IMG/VR virus record: IMGVR_UViG_3300025439_000012
Span: 1-20,458 of that record
Source of the DNA: a virus
Strand: one strand, 5' to 3'
DNA length: 20,458 bases
Numbering within the stretch: position 1 is the stretch's first letter; each line of letters opens with the position of its first letter. The notes below the pieces were generated by a model. It ran no database searches, was not told where the DNA came from, and worked only from the letters and a program-made list of their open reading frames with translations. The position numbers and the translations under genes are program-made. Positions 5,654 through 18,971 of this stretch are shown here, in pieces.

Positions 5654-5674
5654 TAGGCTTCTATAGAAAAGGTG

Positions 5675-6004
5675 ATGCACTCCGAAATATGTCCTGTTTG
5701 TCATGGCGAAGGGACGATTCCCGTCATAGGAATGACAACAAGCACAGACCCAAGAAAGACCTGTCACGCTTGTAATGGAGCCGGATACATCCTAGTTCCT
5801 GATGAACATCCTTACTGGCCAGAACCCTACTATCCGCCACAACCCTACTATCCGCCACAACCCTACTATCCGCCACAACCCTACTATCCGCCACAACCCT
5901 TCACGCCTTTCTACATTGACCCTCAGTATCCTTTCTACTTCCCTTTCTACATTGACCCTCAGTATCCTTTCTACTTCTGTTGTATGGTGATTCCAAGTGA
6001 CTGA
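5675..6004 (+). CDS. DnaJ-type zinc finger protein with Tyr/Pro repeats (109 aa)
   Basis: The N-terminal 40 residues contain C6-x2-C9-x-G-x-G (CPVCHGEG) and C30-x2-C33-x-G-x-G (CHACNGAG), the paired repeats of the DnaJ Cys-rich zinc domain. In chaperones this domain binds unfolded substrate. It is followed by four copies of a hexapeptide (PYYPPQ) and two copies of a 12-residue Phe/Tyr/Pro unit (around FYIDPQYPFYF). No J-domain is present. GTG 5672 is a possible start, but ATG 5675 fits the TATA box at 5644. The end overlaps the capsid paralogue by eight bases, so the two are translated together. It may assist assembly or attach to the virion, which is inference. Confidence 0.75.
   Translation: MHSEICPVCHGEGTIPVIGMTTSTDPRKTCHACNGAGYILVPDEHPYWPEPYYPPQPYYPPQPYYPPQPYYPPQPFTPFYIDPQYPFYFPFYIDPQYPFYFCCMVIPSD
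5825..5896 (+). repeat. Four exact 18-bp tandem repeats (coding)
   Basis: The unit CCCTACTATCCGCCACAA occurs four times without a mismatch and encodes the PYYPPQ repeats. Perfect identity at synonymous sites suggests recent expansion or active homogenisation. Confidence 0.95.
5906..5977 (+). repeat. Two exact 36-bp tandem repeats (coding)
   Basis: Positions 5906-5941 and 5942-5977 are identical 36-mers starting CCTTTCTACATTGAC. They duplicate twelve residues containing FYIDPQYPF in the same gene as the 18-bp repeats. Confidence 0.95.
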
Positions 6005-6884
6005 AGAGCCGCATCCAGCAGAGGGATACCCACACAAAGAAGCGGAGTCAGCCTTTCCAGCCTATTGGGGCGAACTGATGGGGGCTATGAGCAGATTCCA
6101 AGAGTCTGGGTATCTTGAAGGTAGGCCAAGTGTGTCAACACCGTCTCCGGCTCCCGGCTCTCCCGCCCTGTTCTATCCTGAACTGACGAAACGCTTCGTA
6201 GAACTCATAATGCCGAAACTAGAGATAAAGCAGATTCTTCAAGACTTCTTCATCAGAGTAGGGGCAACAGCCACCATTCCTAAACAGCAAGGGGCAGGGG
6301 CTAATGCGCTGATAGGTCGAACTGCCGATGGAAACGGAGTTATGATGGACTTCAAACCTTACGACCTTATCACCATCACACCCTACAAGATTGGAATGAG
6401 AGTCCGGCTTGCTAGAGAGATGCTCGAAGACGGCATCTACACCATCGTAGAAGACCAGTTCAGGAGAGCCGCAACACACACTGCCAACGCCATAGACAAC
6501 GACATTGCAAAGGTCTTTGAAGCGGCCAGCAAGAAGAGTTTCAGTTGGCTTCCACACAGGTATCCCCATCTCGATAATGTCATCAAGAACTTGGATGATG
6601 TAGGCAAATACAACGTCCTTATGAACGACAAGAAATACTCGTATGGAGTCAAGATGTCGGGAATCAAGGCTCTGAGAAGCCCGATGATTAATCCGAAAGC
6701 GGCCTATGTCGTTCAGACAGCCTTTGACGGATGTTATGCTCCTGTAGGTTACTTCGTCACCAAGCGTCCAATCAGTATAGATGTCTGGCCACAGCCACAG
6801 TTCGACTCGCTCGATGTTGTCATCACTGCTCGATATGCGCCCGTCATCACCTACCCAGAGGCCATAACGCGGTGCAGAGTTTGA
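5997..6884 (+). CDS. Paralogue of the HK97-like major capsid protein, shortened centre (295 aa)
   Basis: Residues from about 57 (ALFYPELTKRFVEL) to about 165, and the C-terminal 50 residues (YFVTKRPISIDVWPQPQFDS, ARYAPVITYPE), closely match the capsid protein at 18036. Shared blocks include QDFFI-VG-TATIPKQ-GA-ANA-IG and PYKIGMRVR. The centre differs: about 70 residues here replace about 115 there. The first 56 residues are an extension not found in the main protein, Pro/Ser rich near its end (STPSPAPGSP). Start GTG 5997 overlaps the preceding stop. It could be a minor capsid or vertex protein, an assembly competitor, or a decaying duplicate. The intact frame and strong conservation argue that it is used. 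Confidence 0.8.
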   Translation: MTEEPHPAEGYPHKEAESAFPAYWGELMGAMSRFQESGYLEGRPSVSTPSPAPGSPALFYPELTKRFVELIMPKLEIKQILQDFFIRVGATATIPKQQGAGANALIGRTADGNGVMMDFKPYDLITITPYKIGMRVRLAREMLEDGIYTIVEDQFRRAATHTANAIDNDIAKVFEAASKKSFSWLPHRYPHLDNVIKNLDDVGKYNVLMNDKKYSYGVKMSGIKALRSPMINPKAAYVVQTAFDGCYAPVGYFVTKRPISIDVWPQPQFDSLDVVITARYAPVITYPEAITRCRV

Positions 6885-10122: not shown

Positions 10123-10143
10123 ATGGCCGTTCTTAATCTCTCC

Positions 10144-10518
10144 ATGCCACGCAGATTCAGACGCAGGTGGTTCCCACCCTCTTCTCCACAACAGAACAAA
10201 CTTCTGCATTATGTCCGGTTCCTCTATCCAACAGCCGCAAGAAATCATCGAGTTAGAATTGTAGGGATGCGGAAGAGTCGGTGGGTTGACATCGGGATTG
10301 TCGAGAGAAAGATTGCGATAGAGTATCAAGGACAAGCCTATCATAATAGCCCAACTGCTAGAGCAAGAGATAAGATACGGACTAAGGAACTCGAAACAAT
10401 GGGATGGGTCGTCATTTTTGTGGATAAATACAACTGGAAGTGGTTCTTGGCTAATATGCGTGAGATAATAGAAAGAACCACAGTAGAAAGGAAATCTTTA
10501 TATCCGTCATCCACCTAA
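10144..10518 (+). CDS. Putative PD-(D/E)XK-type endonuclease, Vsr/DUF559-like (124 aa)
   Basis: The longest frame starts at 10123, almost inside the TATA box. ATG 10144 (MPRRFRRRWF) is 31 nt from the box and is preferred. D49 (WVDIGI), E60-x-Q62 (IAIEYQGQAYH), D76 with R79 (ARDKIRTKEL) and the GW-VIFV strand follow the order of very-short-patch/DUF559 nucleases: D, then E-x-D/Q, then H, then D-x2-R. The usual E-x-D is E-x-Q here, which may weaken metal binding or be a family variant. The basic N-terminus would bind DNA. Beside an HNH gene it may be part of a selfish homing cassette. Confidence 0.65.
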   Translation: MPRRFRRRWFPPSSPQQNKLLHYVRFLYPTAARNHRVRIVGMRKSRWVDIGIVERKIAIEYQGQAYHNSPTARARDKIRTKELETMGWVVIFVDKYNWKWFLANMREIIERTTVERKSLYPSST

Positions 10519-10526
10519 ATGACGGT

Positions 10527-10997
10527 ATGCAATCTACTTGTAGAATTTGTAAAGTTGAATTAGTTGGAGATGCGTATCCTGCCTTCTTAAAGAGACAGCG
10601 TAGAGGCATTTGTAGAGATTGTCGAAATAATGAACGGAATGAAGACTATCTCAATAACATAGAAGACCGTAGACGAGCAAACAGAAGACGAAACAGGAAA
10701 TACATCATTCGTTTGAAACTGAAGGTTATTAGCCACTATTCCAATGGCACTATGGCTTGTGCCAATCCCTTTGAGAAACACAAAGAACCCTATACAGACA
10801 TTAGAGCAAATTCGATTGACCACATCAAGGGTGGCGGAACTAAACATAGAAAGGGTTTGAATGGGAGCAGTTTCTATCGTTGGCTCATCAAACACAACTA
10901 TCCAGAAGGATACCAAGTGCTTTGTATGTCTTGTCAATACATCAAAAGATGGGAGAACTTTGAGTTTGCGAGTTATATACATGATGAACTGCTTTAA
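10527..10997 (+). CDS. HNH endonuclease-like protein with N-terminal zinc ribbon (156 aa)
   Basis: ATG 10527 lies 31 nt after the C of CTTTATAT at 10496. C5-x2-C8 and C29-x2-C32 form an N-terminal zinc ribbon, followed by an Arg-rich helix (DRRRANRRRNRKY). The HNH core has C78, D98-H99 (SIDHIKGGGTKHRKG) and C133-x2-C136 (LCMSCQYIKR). It is a paralogue of the protein at 16577, which lacks the N-terminal ribbon. Free-standing HNH genes between phage genes are usually homing endonucleases, and some act in DNA packaging. Position next to another nuclease and far from a terminase favours homing. The stop TAA lies in a TATA box for the next gene. Confidence 0.75.
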   Translation: MQSTCRICKVELVGDAYPAFLKRQRRGICRDCRNNERNEDYLNNIEDRRRANRRRNRKYIIRLKLKVISHYSNGTMACANPFEKHKEPYTDIRANSIDHIKGGGTKHRKGLNGSSFYRWLIKHNYPEGYQVLCMSCQYIKRWENFEFASYIHDELL

Positions 10998-13001: not shown

Positions 13002-13045
13002 AGCGCAAACTAGGCTTTAAATAGTTCCACGCCCTAGTCTATCTT

Positions 13046-13846
13046 ATGTCTGAGGATGGCACTCATGAGTTTGTAGGGCATCACGCCTTTGCTGATTTCT
13101 ACGGGTGCAAAGGAGACCTAGACGACAAGGAGAAAATGGAAGAGGCCATCTCGCTTGCTATCGAAGCCGCAGATATGGATGAGGTCAAGACCGATGTAGT
13201 CAACTTTGACCCACAAGGCACGACTGCTATCTCTATTATCACTCAGTCTTCAGTTACCATCCACACATGGCCGGAGTCTGATGGGATGCTAGTGGATGCC
13301 ATCACTTGTGGCCCTCATGACCCTCACAAAATCATCGAGACACTTAAGGAGATTTACCAACCTGAGAAAGTCAACGAGTGGAGAGTGGACAGAGGCGAAG
13401 CAAGCAACGAAGTGAAGAGGCTAGAAGAAGACCGAGAGACAGACGTTGCGCCCGTCCCTATAAGATTTCCTGACGAGAAGACAAAGGTGACGGGAGAGAG
13501 CGTTGAGGTCAAGCCCTGCTCTCATGGTCACGGTGTCTTCGCTACCAAGGACTTCGGAGAGGGCGAGACGATTCAAAGTTTTCAGGCTCCCTTTGTAGAG
13601 GGAGACGAAGACCCTTCTGAGGAAGGGACGGCTCTCAGAGTCGGAGACCTGTGGTGGAACGGCCCAAAGGCTGGAACGGAGCAGGAGTGGGCCAACTTCC
13701 TTGACCACAGCGACACGCCCAACGCCAGTTTCTTCGACTTCGACTTGGAGAAAGGCACAGGAAATCTGGTAGCACTTCAAGACATCAAGGTGGGTGACGA
13801 AATCCTCATAGACTATGGGCAGTATGCCCCAGAGAACCTTAAATAG
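13046..13846 (+). CDS. Fusion: AdoMet decarboxylase (SpeD)-like domain + SET domain (266 aa)
   Basis: Residues 7-106 match the prokaryotic SpeD proenzyme: GHHAFADFYGC (11-21), NFDPQG (53-58), S68-V-T-I-H73-T-W-P-E77 and C88 (AITCG). S68, H73 and C88 correspond to the pyruvoyl-forming Ser, the processing His and the catalytic Cys. The usual E-S-H is Q67-S68-S69, and the conserved Ser before it is T60. After a charged linker (110-150) comes a SET domain: HGHGVFATKDFGEGETI (160-176), NFLDHSDTPNASF (217-229) and ALQDIKVGDEILIDYG (243-258), the NHS-PN and DYG AdoMet/substrate motifs. SpeD decarboxylates AdoMet for polyamine synthesis, while SET transfers methyl from AdoMet to lysine. TATA CTTTAAATA at 13015 is about 30 nt upstream. 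Its activity is unknown. Confidence 0.8.
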   Translation: MSEDGTHEFVGHHAFADFYGCKGDLDDKEKMEEAISLAIEAADMDEVKTDVVNFDPQGTTAISIITQSSVTIHTWPESDGMLVDAITCGPHDPHKIIETLKEIYQPEKVNEWRVDRGEASNEVKRLEEDRETDVAPVPIRFPDEKTKVTGESVEVKPCSHGHGVFATKDFGEGETIQSFQAPFVEGDEDPSEEGTALRVGDLWWNGPKAGTEQEWANFLDHSDTPNASFFDFDLEKGTGNLVALQDIKVGDEILIDYGQYAPENLK

Positions 13847-13867: not shown

Positions 13868-14212
13868 ATGCCAACGATGGAGTTGATTGTGCCTCTCACC
13901 TATGGCGATACCGGAGAGCCAGTTGACGCAGAAGCCTTCATGATTCTTGAAGAGAAACTGATGGACTATTTCGGCGGTTATACGTCACATTCCATTGAGG
14001 GCGGATGGCGCAGTCCCACCGGGCAACGCCTTCGTGATGAGAGCGTTAGATATGTCGCCTCTTCCGACCAATACGACCCTGAGACTTTTGAAGTCTACGC
14101 ACACGGAATTGCTGATGCTGTCAAAGACTATTGGAGACAGCAAGAGGTCTACTACAGGGTAGGCAAAGAAGAGGAAATTGAGAAGGACGAAGGCAATCTT
14201 TATATAGGCTAG
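13868..14212 (+). CDS. Unknown conserved-looking protein, FGGYT...GxW motif (114 aa)
   Basis: ATG 13868 is 30 nt after the C of CTTAAATA at 13838, a box that overlaps the end of the SpeD-SET gene (its stop TAG is inside). The protein begins MPTMELIVPLTYGDTGEPVD. The segment LMDYFGGYTSHSIEGGWRSP resembles the FGG-T...G-W motif of DUF3574-like proteins, but I am not certain of the family. A helix (YAHGIADAVKDYWRQQEVYY) and an acidic tail follow. Its position directly after SpeD-SET suggests a linked function or simply adjacent insertion. Confidence 0.6.
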   Translation: MPTMELIVPLTYGDTGEPVDAEAFMILEEKLMDYFGGYTSHSIEGGWRSPTGQRLRDESVRYVASSDQYDPETFEVYAHGIADAVKDYWRQQEVYYRVGKEEEIEKDEGNLYIG

Positions 14213-14228
14213 AAACCATCCTATGCCT

Positions 14229-14522
14229 ATGGACATACGCGACCTAAAAAACGGTATGAAGAAGGTAGATGCCTCTGGGGTTGTGAAGGAACTCGGAGAG
14301 CCTAAGACTGTCAACCTGAGAGCAGGTGGGACAGCACAGGTGGCAGACGCGAAGATTCAGGATGCAACAGGAAGCATCACTCTGTCGCTTTGGAACGATG
14401 ACATCAAGAGAGTCAAGAAAGACTCACTGGTGGCCGTCACCAACGGGTTCGTGAACGAATTTCAGAACGTCATCCGCCTCAACGTAGGGAAATACGGCAA
14501 ACTCACTGTAGATGGCAGTTGA
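14229..14522 (+). CDS. OB-fold single-stranded DNA-binding protein (97 aa)
   Basis: ATG 14229 (MDIRDLKNGMKK) lies 31 nt after CTTTATATAG at 14198. ATG 14223 would add two residues and also lies close. The order DLKNGMKKVDASGVVKELGE, VADAKIQDATGSITLSLWND, DSLVAVTNGFVNEFQ and NVIRLNVGKYGKL is that of the archaeal RPA/SSB OB fold: first strand, the D-TG-I-L-LW strand pair, then NG-V and L-x-G-x-G. Length fits a single OB domain with no acidic tail. It probably coats viral single-stranded DNA during replication or recombination. Confidence 0.8.
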   Translation: MDIRDLKNGMKKVDASGVVKELGEPKTVNLRAGGTAQVADAKIQDATGSITLSLWNDDIKRVKKDSLVAVTNGFVNEFQNVIRLNVGKYGKLTVDGS

Positions 14523-15019: not shown

Positions 15020-16549
15020 ATGGCTCCGATACCTTCAGACAGAAAAGGGCTTACCCTCAAGTATAGTTCTGGAATCGCACCCCTAGTTACAACCAAACGA
15101 TACGCCGAACTCATTGACAACTACAAGAAGAACGGGCCAAGTGCCTTTCCGCACATTCTAGACCTTGGCGGTATGGCTATTGACACTTCTCGCAACCGGA
15201 ACAAGTGGCGTGTGCCTCTCGAAGACCTTCAAGCCATCGCTGACAAACTGAAGGGACTCCCTCTGATGAAAGACCACGACATAGACCACGTTGATTCTAT
15301 CATCGGAAAGGTCGAAGAGGCGTGGGTAGAACCGGATAAGGACGACCCGACAGCAGGAAAAGTCTTCTGGAAGGGCGAGTGTAGCGATGAAAGCCTCATT
15401 CAGAAGATACTTTTGGGCTATGTCAAGCACAACTCGATTCAGATTGCTGTGCCGAGAGCCTATTGCGATGACTGTATGTCCTCACAAGGCAAGAAAGAAG
15501 AGGAAGCGGCCATTGATGACCTAGACCTTCCCTGCCCAAGATGTGGCAGTTTGAATATGCTGATACGCGGCCCACTACCTTTGGAGCAGTCTCTTGTGGC
15601 AATCCCCGCCTATGAGCGTGCAGATGTGACCCCATTCGGGTTCAAAGCCAGCATGGACTTCGCTCTGAGGGCGCGTTACGAGCCTAAAGAAGCACCAAAA
15701 GCAGTCCCGAAGGTGGCCAAAGTGGTGCGTTTAGACCTCACACCCCTGCTTTTTGAGGCCATGAATGCAGTCGGAATGGTCACTGCTGAAGTGGCTGAAA
15801 TGGAACTTAGGATGGCAAAGATGGCCTTAGAGGGCTATCCAGAAGACCGAGTTGAGATTTATTACAGTCAAAAGGCCAAAGACCCGGCCTCAGACAAGCC
15901 TATAGAGGACATGGGGATGACTCCCGAACAGAAAGCCCTTCTGCATTCTGTGGGGCAACCACAGGAGTTGGGTTCCGCGTGTCCAGACTGTGGACAGGAG
16001 TTCGGAGAAGAGAGGCTTGCTCTTCTAGACCACATGGAGAAGGAGCATGGATACACGATTGGCGAGACTCTAGAGACCCCAGACCCCTTCGACCAGTTCG
16101 ATGTCTCCAAATGGGACGAAGGAAAAGGTGGCTCATTAGAGGACTTCCCCTTGGTCGAGAAAGGTGGAGAGAAGGATAAAAAGGAAGAGGGCAAATGCGT
16201 ATGCGGTCATGTGAGAGGGTATCATCAAGAAGATGGCTGTCATGCACCTACGTCCTATTTTCCGGGCGCGGCTTGCTCATGCACAGTCTATGAAGAGGCA
16301 GGAAAAAAGGAAGAGGCATCTGAATATGTGGGTATGCCCTGTCCCGAATGTAAGATAGGTGAAATGGTTGATGATGGAAAGGGCGGGGCAAATTGCCCCA
16401 ATTGTGGCTGGCCCTCAGATAAGAAAGAAGAAGACAAGTGTATCTGGTGCAATCCAATAGGCTTGAATTTAAGAAGTATTGAGGCAACTCATGAAGATTG
16501 CACCTGTAAAGAGCCTTGTGACGAATCCTTCTGTATGGCGAAGGCTTAA
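15020..16549 (+). CDS. Prohead-protease-like protein with multiple zinc modules (509 aa)
   Basis: Residues 50-215 follow the HK97 prohead protease (S78) pattern: LPLMKDHDID (H86), IIGKVEEAWVE, GKVFWKGEC, KILLGYVKHNSIQIAV (S139) and LEQSLVAIPAYERADV (from 188). H86 and S139 are the likely catalytic pair. Inserted between S139 and E189 are C149-x2-C152 and C172-x2-C175, a zinc ribbon inside the protease fold. The long C-terminal part has C321-x2-C324...H338-x4-H343, C393-x-C395-G-H...C407-H408...C419-x-C421, C441-x2-C444...C459-x2-C462, and C474-x2-C477...C494-x-C496...C500...C505. The position before scaffold and capsid supports a maturation role. TATA CTTAAATA at 14986 is 34 nt upstream. Zinc modules on this enzyme are unusual. 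Confidence 0.7.
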   Translation: MAPIPSDRKGLTLKYSSGIAPLVTTKRYAELIDNYKKNGPSAFPHILDLGGMAIDTSRNRNKWRVPLEDLQAIADKLKGLPLMKDHDIDHVDSIIGKVEEAWVEPDKDDPTAGKVFWKGECSDESLIQKILLGYVKHNSIQIAVPRAYCDDCMSSQGKKEEEAAIDDLDLPCPRCGSLNMLIRGPLPLEQSLVAIPAYERADVTPFGFKASMDFALRARYEPKEAPKAVPKVAKVVRLDLTPLLFEAMNAVGMVTAEVAEMELRMAKMALEGYPEDRVEIYYSQKAKDPASDKPIEDMGMTPEQKALLHSVGQPQELGSACPDCGQEFGEERLALLDHMEKEHGYTIGETLETPDPFDQFDVSKWDEGKGGSLEDFPLVEKGGEKDKKEEGKCVCGHVRGYHQEDGCHAPTSYFPGAACSCTVYEEAGKKEEASEYVGMPCPECKIGEMVDDGKGGANCPNCGWPSDKKEEDKCIWCNPIGLNLRSIEATHEDCTCKEPCDESFCMAKA

Positions 16550-16576: not shown

Positions 16577-16909
16577 ATGCCCACTAACAGAAAGGACTAT
16601 ATGCGAGACTACATGAGAGACTACAAGCAGAGAATCAAACTGAAGGTTCTCATTCACTATTCTGGCACAGACCCGCCTCAATGCGCCAATCCTTTTGGGG
16701 AGCATAAGGAACCCTATACGAACATCCTTGCACTTTCTGTTGACCATATTGATGGTGGTGGGACGCAACACAGAGAGAATCAGGGACATGGCAACGTATT
16801 CTATCTCTGGTTGATAAAGAACAACTACCCAGAAGGATACCAATGTCTTTGTATGAACTGCCAGTTTATCAAACGAAAACGGAACAAAGAGGTTCCCCGA
16901 CACCTTTAA
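16577..16909 (+). CDS. HNH endonuclease-like protein (110 aa)
   Basis: ATG 16577 lies 31 nt after CTTAAATA at 16546. C36 (QCANPFGEHKEPY), D56-H57 (SVDHIDGGGTQHRE) and C92-x2-C95 (LCMNCQFIKR) form the HNH core. It matches residues about 60-140 of the protein at 10527 block by block (NYPEGYQ-LCM-CQ-IKR), so the two are paralogues. The N-terminal zinc ribbon is absent and replaced by a short basic helix (DYMRDYMRDYKQR). It separates the prohead protease from the scaffold gene, a typical site for a homing endonuclease in a phage structural operon. The stop TAA overlaps a TATA box. Confidence 0.75.
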   Translation: MPTNRKDYMRDYMRDYKQRIKLKVLIHYSGTDPPQCANPFGEHKEPYTNILALSVDHIDGGGTQHRENQGHGNVFYLWLIKNNYPEGYQCLCMNCQFIKRKRNKEVPRHL

Positions 16910-18035: not shown

Positions 18036-18971
18036 ATGGCAATGACAAGAGAGCAGTTCCCGATAGTTAACACTGGTGCTCTGTTCTATCCAGCACTGGC
18101 GAAGAGGATAGTAGAACTTACGATGCCCAATCTGGCATTGAAGCCTCTACTTCAGGACTTCTTCATCAAGGTTGGTTCAACAGCCACCATTCCGAAACAA
18201 AAGGGTGCTCGCGCCAACGCAGTTATAGGAAAGACTGCGGAAGGGGCCGAGATAATGGCCGACTTCACACCTTACGACTCGATTACCGTTACACCTTACA
18301 AGGTGGGTATGAGAGTCCGAGTTACCAGAGAGTTGATTGAAGACCAGATAGTGAACATAGTAGAAGACCAGTTGAAACGAGCCGCGAGACGGGTGGTCAT
18401 GACAATTGACCAAGACGTTGAGAAGGCTCTTAACGCAGGTGCTCAAACCACCTACGGTGTCACTGGAACTTCAGTGTTCATGGATGGAACGCCCGGAACA
18501 TTCGCTAACACGATAGGAGTTAACGACATTACTAACGGTATCCAAGTTGTCCAGAACTTCATGCTGGAACCTGATACAATCGCCATGAATCCGATGGCGA
18601 ATCAGGACTTGGCTAGGATTCCGCAGTTTGCCGCGCTACTCTTCTTCGGACAGCCTGTATACGCACAGGGACAGGGAACAGTCGTTTCCGCCCCCGCGCT
18701 GTATGGACTGAAGCGCATAGTTACCCCGAACATCCCTCTGACTGATGGAACTGCCAACAGTGGTAGGGCTTACATCCTTGCCGCATCAGGTAGCAACTAC
18801 TCAGCCGCATATGCCCCGTTGGGCTACTTTGCGACTAAGAGACCCATCAGTGTAGATGTTTGGCCGCAACCGACTTTCGACTCGATAGACACAGTGATTA
18901 CTGCAAGATACGCGCCAGTCATCACATACCCAGAAAGTATTGTGAAGATGACGGACTTGCGGTCTGCATAG
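18036..18971 (+). CDS. Major capsid protein, HK97-like (311 aa)
   Basis: ATG 18036 (MAMTREQFPIVNTGALFYPA) follows the decoration gene by 19 bases. Its length of 311 residues without a large delta domain fits compact HK97-type capsid proteins. Features are an N-terminal helix (LAKRIVELTMPNLALKPLLQ), strands with SITVTPYKVGMRVRVTREL, a long helix (VNIVEDQLKRAARRVVMTID) resembling the spine helix, and a C-terminal strand set (FATKRPISVDVWPQPTFDS, ARYAPVITYPE). Order with scaffold and decoration genes supports the call. A shortened paralogue lies at 5997. The gene is followed by a terminator hairpin at 19032. Confidence 0.8.
   Translation: MAMTREQFPIVNTGALFYPALAKRIVELTMPNLALKPLLQDFFIKVGSTATIPKQKGARANAVIGKTAEGAEIMADFTPYDSITVTPYKVGMRVRVTRELIEDQIVNIVEDQLKRAARRVVMTIDQDVEKALNAGAQTTYGVTGTSVFMDGTPGTFANTIGVNDITNGIQVVQNFMLEPDTIAMNPMANQDLARIPQFAALLFFGQPVYAQGQGTVVSAPALYGLKRIVTPNIPLTDGTANSGRAYILAASGSNYSAAYAPLGYFATKRPISVDVWPQPTFDSIDTVITARYAPVITYPESIVKMTDLRSA

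Follow-up and report, generated by a model that had tools for sequence, protein, structure and literature searches.

The window, a 20,458-base virus record, contains a single gene that joins a SpeD domain to a SET domain. This pairing is genuine and viral, and our searches found no earlier description of it. SpeD domains normally decarboxylate S-adenosylmethionine (AdoMet) and SET domains normally use AdoMet to methylate lysines. Both domains are of known kinds; their combination is new, and unusual residues occur in each of the two sites. The features of this locus, all on the + strand, are:

13016-13023, +, archaeal-type TATA box TTTAAATA, 30 nt upstream of the fusion ATG
13046-13846, +, SpeD-SET fusion gene, 266 aa, uninterrupted from ATG to stop
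13064-13405, +, SpeD (class 1b AdoMet decarboxylase) domain, residues 7-120, from Pfam, an AlphaFold2 model and a fold match
13244-13249, +, predicted self-cleavage site Gln67-Ser68, equivalent to Glu62-Ser63 of T. maritima
13262-13264, +, His73, equivalent to T. maritima His68 (processing/catalysis)
13307-13309, +, Cys88, equivalent to T. maritima Cys83 (catalysis)
13406-13495, +, charged helical linker, residues 121-150, of low pLDDT and of a length that differs between members
13496-13831, +, SET domain, residues 151-262, from Pfam, with vSET as top profile and Foldseek match
13703-13708, +, SET motif III, Asp220-His221 (Asn-His elsewhere), from motif comparison
13814-13816, +, SET motif IV, Tyr257 (DYG), from motif comparison
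13868-14212, +, 114-aa gene accompanying SpeD-SET in every fusion contig, with a weak PHROG 3543 match

A preliminary description of this DNA had proposed one uninterrupted frame holding both domains, and the profile searches bear this out. Specifically, the Pfam AdoMet_dc profile (PF02675) matches residues 13-117 of the 266-aa protein (E 2.8e-24, 86 bits against a cut-off of 25) and the SET profile (PF00856) matches residues 161-258 (E 1.9e-11, 44.7 bits against a cut-off of 22.4), and the motifs that had been named, Gln67-Ser68, TIHTWPE, FLDHSDTPN and DYG, are all present. NCBIfam TIGR03330 scores 83.6 bits against a curated cut-off of 75.65, the PHROGs profile match is the SpeD family, and a phmmer search of the PDB returns the T. 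maritima and Aquifex SpeD proteins as well as, weakly, SET enzymes.

Searches of metagenomic viruses revealed the same fusion in four other contigs, namely IMGVR_UViG_3300025419_000037 and 3300039258_000198 (both 100% identity), 3300039412_001255 (90%) and 3300037843_000452 (71%), and the fusion is kept in three distinct virus lineages. An assembly error, frameshift or metagenomic chimera joining two genes, which has nothing in its favour except the metagenomic origin of the data, is thus ruled out for practical purposes, since the same join and the same surrounding gene neighbourhood recur in independent contigs at 100, 90 and 71% identity. The preliminary description knew of no enzyme with this pairing, and we likewise found no description of a SpeD-SET protein in the open-access literature, for which reason we count it as a new combination. 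No phage record covered 80% of the fusion-protein query. One limited scan of genome contigs found no cellular SpeD-SET, which is weak evidence because that scan used just two short peptide patterns. The linker helix (NEVKRLEE) is similar to the one at the C-terminus of SET-only proteins (NEVTKLEQ), a likeness that is suggestive only; 23-149 of 5000 shuffles were equally good.

The SpeD half is modelled by AlphaFold2 with a pLDDT of about 94-98 over residues 11-110, and this model superimposes on T. maritima SpeD with a Z score of 19.7 and an rmsd of 1.6 Å over 114 residues, followed by Aquifex SpeD and then by the N-terminal domain of human spermine synthase (Z 11.3). The self-processing residues Ser68, His73 and Cys88 (Ser63, His68 and Cys83 in T. 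maritima) are present in all SpeD-SET members. When compared with 58 other distinct viral SpeDs and with the T. maritima and Aquifex sequences, the fusion SpeD keeps 12 conserved positions (Phe54, Pro56, Gly58, Ser68, His73, Thr74, Trp75, Pro76, Glu77, Asp84, Cys88 and Arg116), of which we take Phe54, Trp75 and Glu77 to be pocket residues from what we know of the T. maritima enzyme. In T. maritima SpeD, His68 has processing and catalytic roles and Cys83 a catalytic role (PMC10407285).

Both domains also carry substitutions at otherwise invariant residues, which the preliminary description did not mention. In regards to SpeD, the fusion protein has Gln67 and Ser69 where all other compared SpeDs have Glu and His. 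In a scan whose pattern allowed only Glu or Gln and Ser or His at those places, Glu-Ser-His was present in 76/80 loci and Gln-Ser-Ser in 4/80, the latter confined to the SpeD-SET clade; Glu-Ser-His around the cleaved bond is a common feature of SpeD and not a strict requirement. The SpeDs of the fusion proteins form one clade in the tree, with a stem of 1.98 changes per site and support of 100/100. This very long branch, together with the Gln67 and Ser69 substitutions, suggests a changed SpeD function. Within the clade the SpeD part is under strong purifying selection, with a dN/dS of about 0.02 between the window and L004 (dN 0.017-0.019, dS 0.83-1.30) and of 0.06-0.14 between the window and L005, a pair in which amino acid identity is 82% in the SpeD part and 63% in SET. 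A changed but working protein would be expected to show just such a long stem and, after it, strong constraint. Spermidine synthase (SpeE) was not found in nine related records, which include three of about 105 kb without the fusion; the fusion-bearing records are fragments. As a separate observation on viral SpeD genes, Moorella phage MTATph1 (L048, OR602862.1) has speD between two genes that are both annotated as major head protein, and Microcystis phage MaAM05 (L045, MW495066.1) has two adjoining genes that are each annotated as SpeD.

The core of the SET half matches SET structures, with vSET best by sequence profile and Foldseek. The SET profile of the clade ranks vSET first among solved structures (E 3.8e-7), and a Foldseek search with a model of the SET domain alone has 3kma vSET as its top match (E 1.6e-5), a model that is moderate in quality (pTM 0.69, with fragment residues 46-79 below pLDDT 50, from a 17-row input). 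The full-length model is poor at residues 181-211, and the model of the domain alone brought no improvement there, so that parts of the SET-I region are badly modelled in both. Motif I (GxG) is kept as G161-H-G163, and motif IV (ELxFDY-like) reads EILIDY, with Tyr257 present in all members. Motif III is Asp-His in the whole clade, SET-only members included, whereas Asn-His is present in 45/45 of the other viral SETs in which this motif is readable. In regards to motif II, the fused SETs lack any Tyr before Tyr257, and the corresponding column has Gly or Ala in the fused SET and Tyr in 10/12 other viral SETs, with alignment and model both uncertain there. An aromatic equivalent of motif II is possible because the position of Trp203 in the fused proteins is taken by Tyr in the SET-only protein of L015, and thus Trp203 may be the equivalent of the motif II Tyr. 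In yeast Set1, N1016A and Y967A behave as nulls, whereas certain changes close by are tolerated (PMC3585878). Since the SET half departs from canonical methyltransferase motifs, lysine methylation is not to be assumed. The roles suggested in the preliminary description, with SpeD supplying or sensing AdoMet or decarboxylated AdoMet for SET, or with SET methylating chromatin or capsid proteins, are conjectural. Overall, the AdoMet sites of SpeD and SET both appear to be altered, and the enzyme activities of the two halves are predicted ones.

Short SETs are common in IMG/VR, and the SET domain had no match in the phage collection. We also observed that phrog_28741, which is listed without function, matches short viral SET proteins in IMG/VR contigs, L160 and L151 among them, and probably represents a SET family.

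Relatives of the window virus differ in what they carry at this locus. The 105-kb record G001, whose MCP is 99% identical to that of the window, has a 171-aa SET-only protein at the same position (L015:5947-6462), flanked as in the window by orthologues of the 12228-13001 gene and of the OB-fold gene at 14223-14522, and no SpeD was found in that record. L056 also carries the SET-only form at this locus, and in L019 the neighbouring genes are present with no SET match between them. Record G010 has the SET module within a 781-aa protein at a different genomic place (L043:2981-5326). SET therefore looks to be a portable module in these viruses, as relatives have it alone at the locus or inside a larger protein elsewhere, and it seems to have no need of a fused SpeD since SET-only relatives occupy the same locus. 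The same relatives argue that the pairing was built or dismantled within the virus lineage, with SpeD either gained before SET in one sub-lineage or lost in the rest. The 114-aa gene that follows the fusion gene is absent from the compared SpeD-less relatives (L015, L056, L019 and L024), and among the viral contigs scanned it occurred solely in those of this virus group. Overall, the SpeD-SET locus is accessory and variable between relatives. Two side observations concern the relatives themselves. In the SET-only gene L056:4944-5460, an otherwise conserved Trp codon is replaced by an in-frame TAG, through either decay or a sequencing error. The 781-aa protein also contains a homing-endonuclease-like stretch (phrog_9084, residues 186-288) and zinc-finger-like cysteine motifs.

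The expression signals of this virus are archaeal in type. TATA boxes are present at -38 to -18 before 38/86 start codons (44%) relative to 1.2% of random positions, and they peak genome-wide at -30 to -33. Shine-Dalgarno-like motifs exceed background only slightly (9.3% versus 5.9%). A TATA peak with no Shine-Dalgarno signal is the pattern of archaeal, largely leaderless transcription, and it makes a bacterial phage unlikely. The preliminary description had given the fusion gene its own promoter, and this is plausible in the form of the archaeal TATA box at 13016-13023, not of a bacterial promoter; the stretch round this box is conserved in the SET-only relatives L015 and L056. The window has an HK97-type capsid match in Pfam and PHROGs, and G001 has portal, terminase ATPase, B-family polymerase, Rad51-like and HerA-like genes. 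Some of the MCP relatives are records of about 105 kb, and a comparison of the MCP with the phage collection gave a single weak match, to the haloarchaeal virus HGTV-1. No tRNA genes were found when host clues were sought. Taken together, the virus is a tailed one (Caudoviricetes), and archaea are its probable hosts.

Several other features of the window were seen in passing. A second, diverged MCP copy at 5997-6884 is 43% identical to that at 18036-18971 and is without a Pfam match of its own. The capsid-protease-like gene at 15020-16549 (orthologues L015:7325-8860 and L004:6862-8328) has a C-terminal part that differs between relatives, and the zinc-ribbon-like cysteine motifs in these varying C-termini are different ones, as though small modules had been exchanged. 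Genes 10527-10997 and 16577-16909, which share an 89-nt stretch at 73% identity, are possibly HNH-type or zinc-finger endonucleases, and 10123-10518 has a REase MTES_1575 match slightly under the cut-off. Tandem repeats of 18 and 36 nt at 5800-5977, which encode repeats rich in Pro and Tyr (YPPQP), lie at the end of frame 5672-6004.

Our best explanation of the fusion protein, which we favour tentatively, is that it is a self-cleaving pyruvoyl enzyme that carries SET on its alpha chain and forms a dimer holding two SETs. An accessory gene of a probable archaeal tailed virus would thus have a class 1b SpeD module placed ahead of a viral SET module. The proenzyme would fold and dimerise via its SpeD core and would then cleave itself between Gln67 and Ser68, with Ser68 converted to the pyruvoyl group, giving a mature protein made of a short beta chain (1-67) and an alpha chain (68-266) that bears SET. 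As cleavage would leave SET on the alpha chain, one SpeD dimer would carry two SET domains. The SpeD site would decarboxylate a substrate, most probably AdoMet given that Phe54, Trp75 and Glu77 are kept, and the SET site would bind AdoMet or a relative of it and modify a host or virion protein. This explanation is favoured by both domains scoring over curated cut-offs, by retention of the fusion in three lineages, by the kept Ser, His, Cys and pocket residues, by the low dN/dS and by the fold match. There is also precedent for SpeD working inside fusions, as seen with self-cleaving SpeD-SpeDC proteins (PMC10407285) and with SpeD-aminopropyltransferase fusions that have AdoMetDC activity (PMC12803844). 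Against it are Gln67 and Ser69, the very long branch and the lack of a spermidine synthase in the nine related records and, on the SET side, the motif III Asp, the missing motif II Tyr and the existence of SET-only relatives without SpeD.

The main rival, which we consider unlikely but a serious contender, is that SpeD is no longer a decarboxylase and instead serves SET as a dimerisation and/or AdoMet-sensing module. In human spermine synthase a SpeD-derived N-terminal domain is a structural dimerisation domain for the fused catalytic domain, and in a bacterial SpeD-aminopropyltransferase fusion SpeD has reportedly lost its activity and is essential for dimer formation (PMC12803844). Among the structural matches human spermine synthase comes directly after SpeD itself, and both the substitutions that flank the cleavage site and the long stem are congruent with such a loss. 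However, the spermine synthase domain is SpeD-like in structure and not in sequence, whereas the viral domain retains its catalytic Ser, His and Cys as well as its pocket residues at a dN/dS of about 0.02.

Alternatively, the SpeD half could have changed substrate and, like the SpeDs of several phages, be a pyruvoyl enzyme that decarboxylates arginine or ornithine, with the join to SET being incidental co-expression, which we regard as improbable. Experiments have established arginine or ornithine decarboxylase activity for some SpeD homologues of phages and archaea (PMC9992855, PMC10407285), with four residues, Gln, Thr, Phe and Tyr, being diagnostic of the SpeDC pyruvoyl ornithine decarboxylase (PMC10407285), and a shift in substrate would agree with the unusual cleavage-site residues and with the absence of SpeE from the nine related records. 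Retention of Trp75, Glu77 and Phe54 argues against such a shift, and conservation of the fused form across lineages argues against an incidental join.

More doubtful still is a role in counter-defence, where SpeD would consume AdoMet and thereby starve AdoMet-dependent restriction or methylation in the host, with SET as an AdoMet-binding partner. Phages do deplete AdoMet with other enzymes, and the accessory, variable nature of the locus would suit this role, but a methyltransferase partner would starve as well. The least probable of the functional readings, and one to which we give very little credence, is a coupled reaction in which SpeD makes decarboxylated AdoMet in place and the SET site, altered by Asp220 in place of Asn and by the lack of a motif II Tyr, uses this product, transferring its aminopropyl group, or its methyl, to a protein lysine; Asp220 is, however, also present in SET-only relatives with no SpeD in the record.

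The SpeD-SET protein is a new domain pairing next to the few SpeD fusions already known, those with spermidine/spermine synthase (PMC12803844) and with a second SpeD (PMC10407285), and it places two AdoMet-binding folds on one chain in an apparent archaeal virus. The natural series of no SET at the locus, SET alone and SpeD-SET means that the added effect of SpeD can be compared between orthologous proteins. An active SET would make this a SET enzyme encoded by an archaeal virus, one that might act on host chromatin or virion proteins, and if SpeD and SET were coupled through decarboxylated AdoMet it would be a protein-aminopropylating SET enzyme.

When compared with known systems, the window protein has in common with class 1b SpeD (TIGR03330, PF02675; T. 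maritima TM0655, 1vr7, 1tlu) the fold, the Ser/His/Cys residues and the pocket Phe/Trp/Glu, and differs from it in having Gln-Ser-Ser for Glu-Ser-His, a SET partner and no SpeE found nearby. With vSET (PBCV-1 A612L; 3kma) it has in common the minimal SET core, the GxG of motif I, the His and PN of motif III and the Tyr of motif IV, whereas the motif III Asp, the lack of a motif II Tyr in the fused forms and the SpeD partner set it apart; in addition, vSET belongs to an algal virus while the expression signals of the window virus are archaeal. The small phage SETs of phrog_28741 are also short viral SET proteins and match the SET of the L005 fusion weakly (E 0.005), but unlike the window SET they are unfused, and the examples seen have Asn-His. 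Goe1-SET of Methanosarcina mazei, which methylates MC1-alpha (PMC3980110), is likewise a SET protein in an archaeal setting, but it is cellular and unfused. As in SpeD-SpeDC double-pyruvoyl fusions (PMC10407285), SpeD is part of a larger chain, which is self-cleaving there and has a second SpeD as partner. Finally, like SpeD-aminopropyltransferase fusions and animal spermine synthase (PMC12803844), the window protein has a SpeD-type N-terminal domain followed by a transferase, one that in those proteins uses an AdoMet derivative, with the partner being spermidine/spermine synthase there and SET in the window protein.
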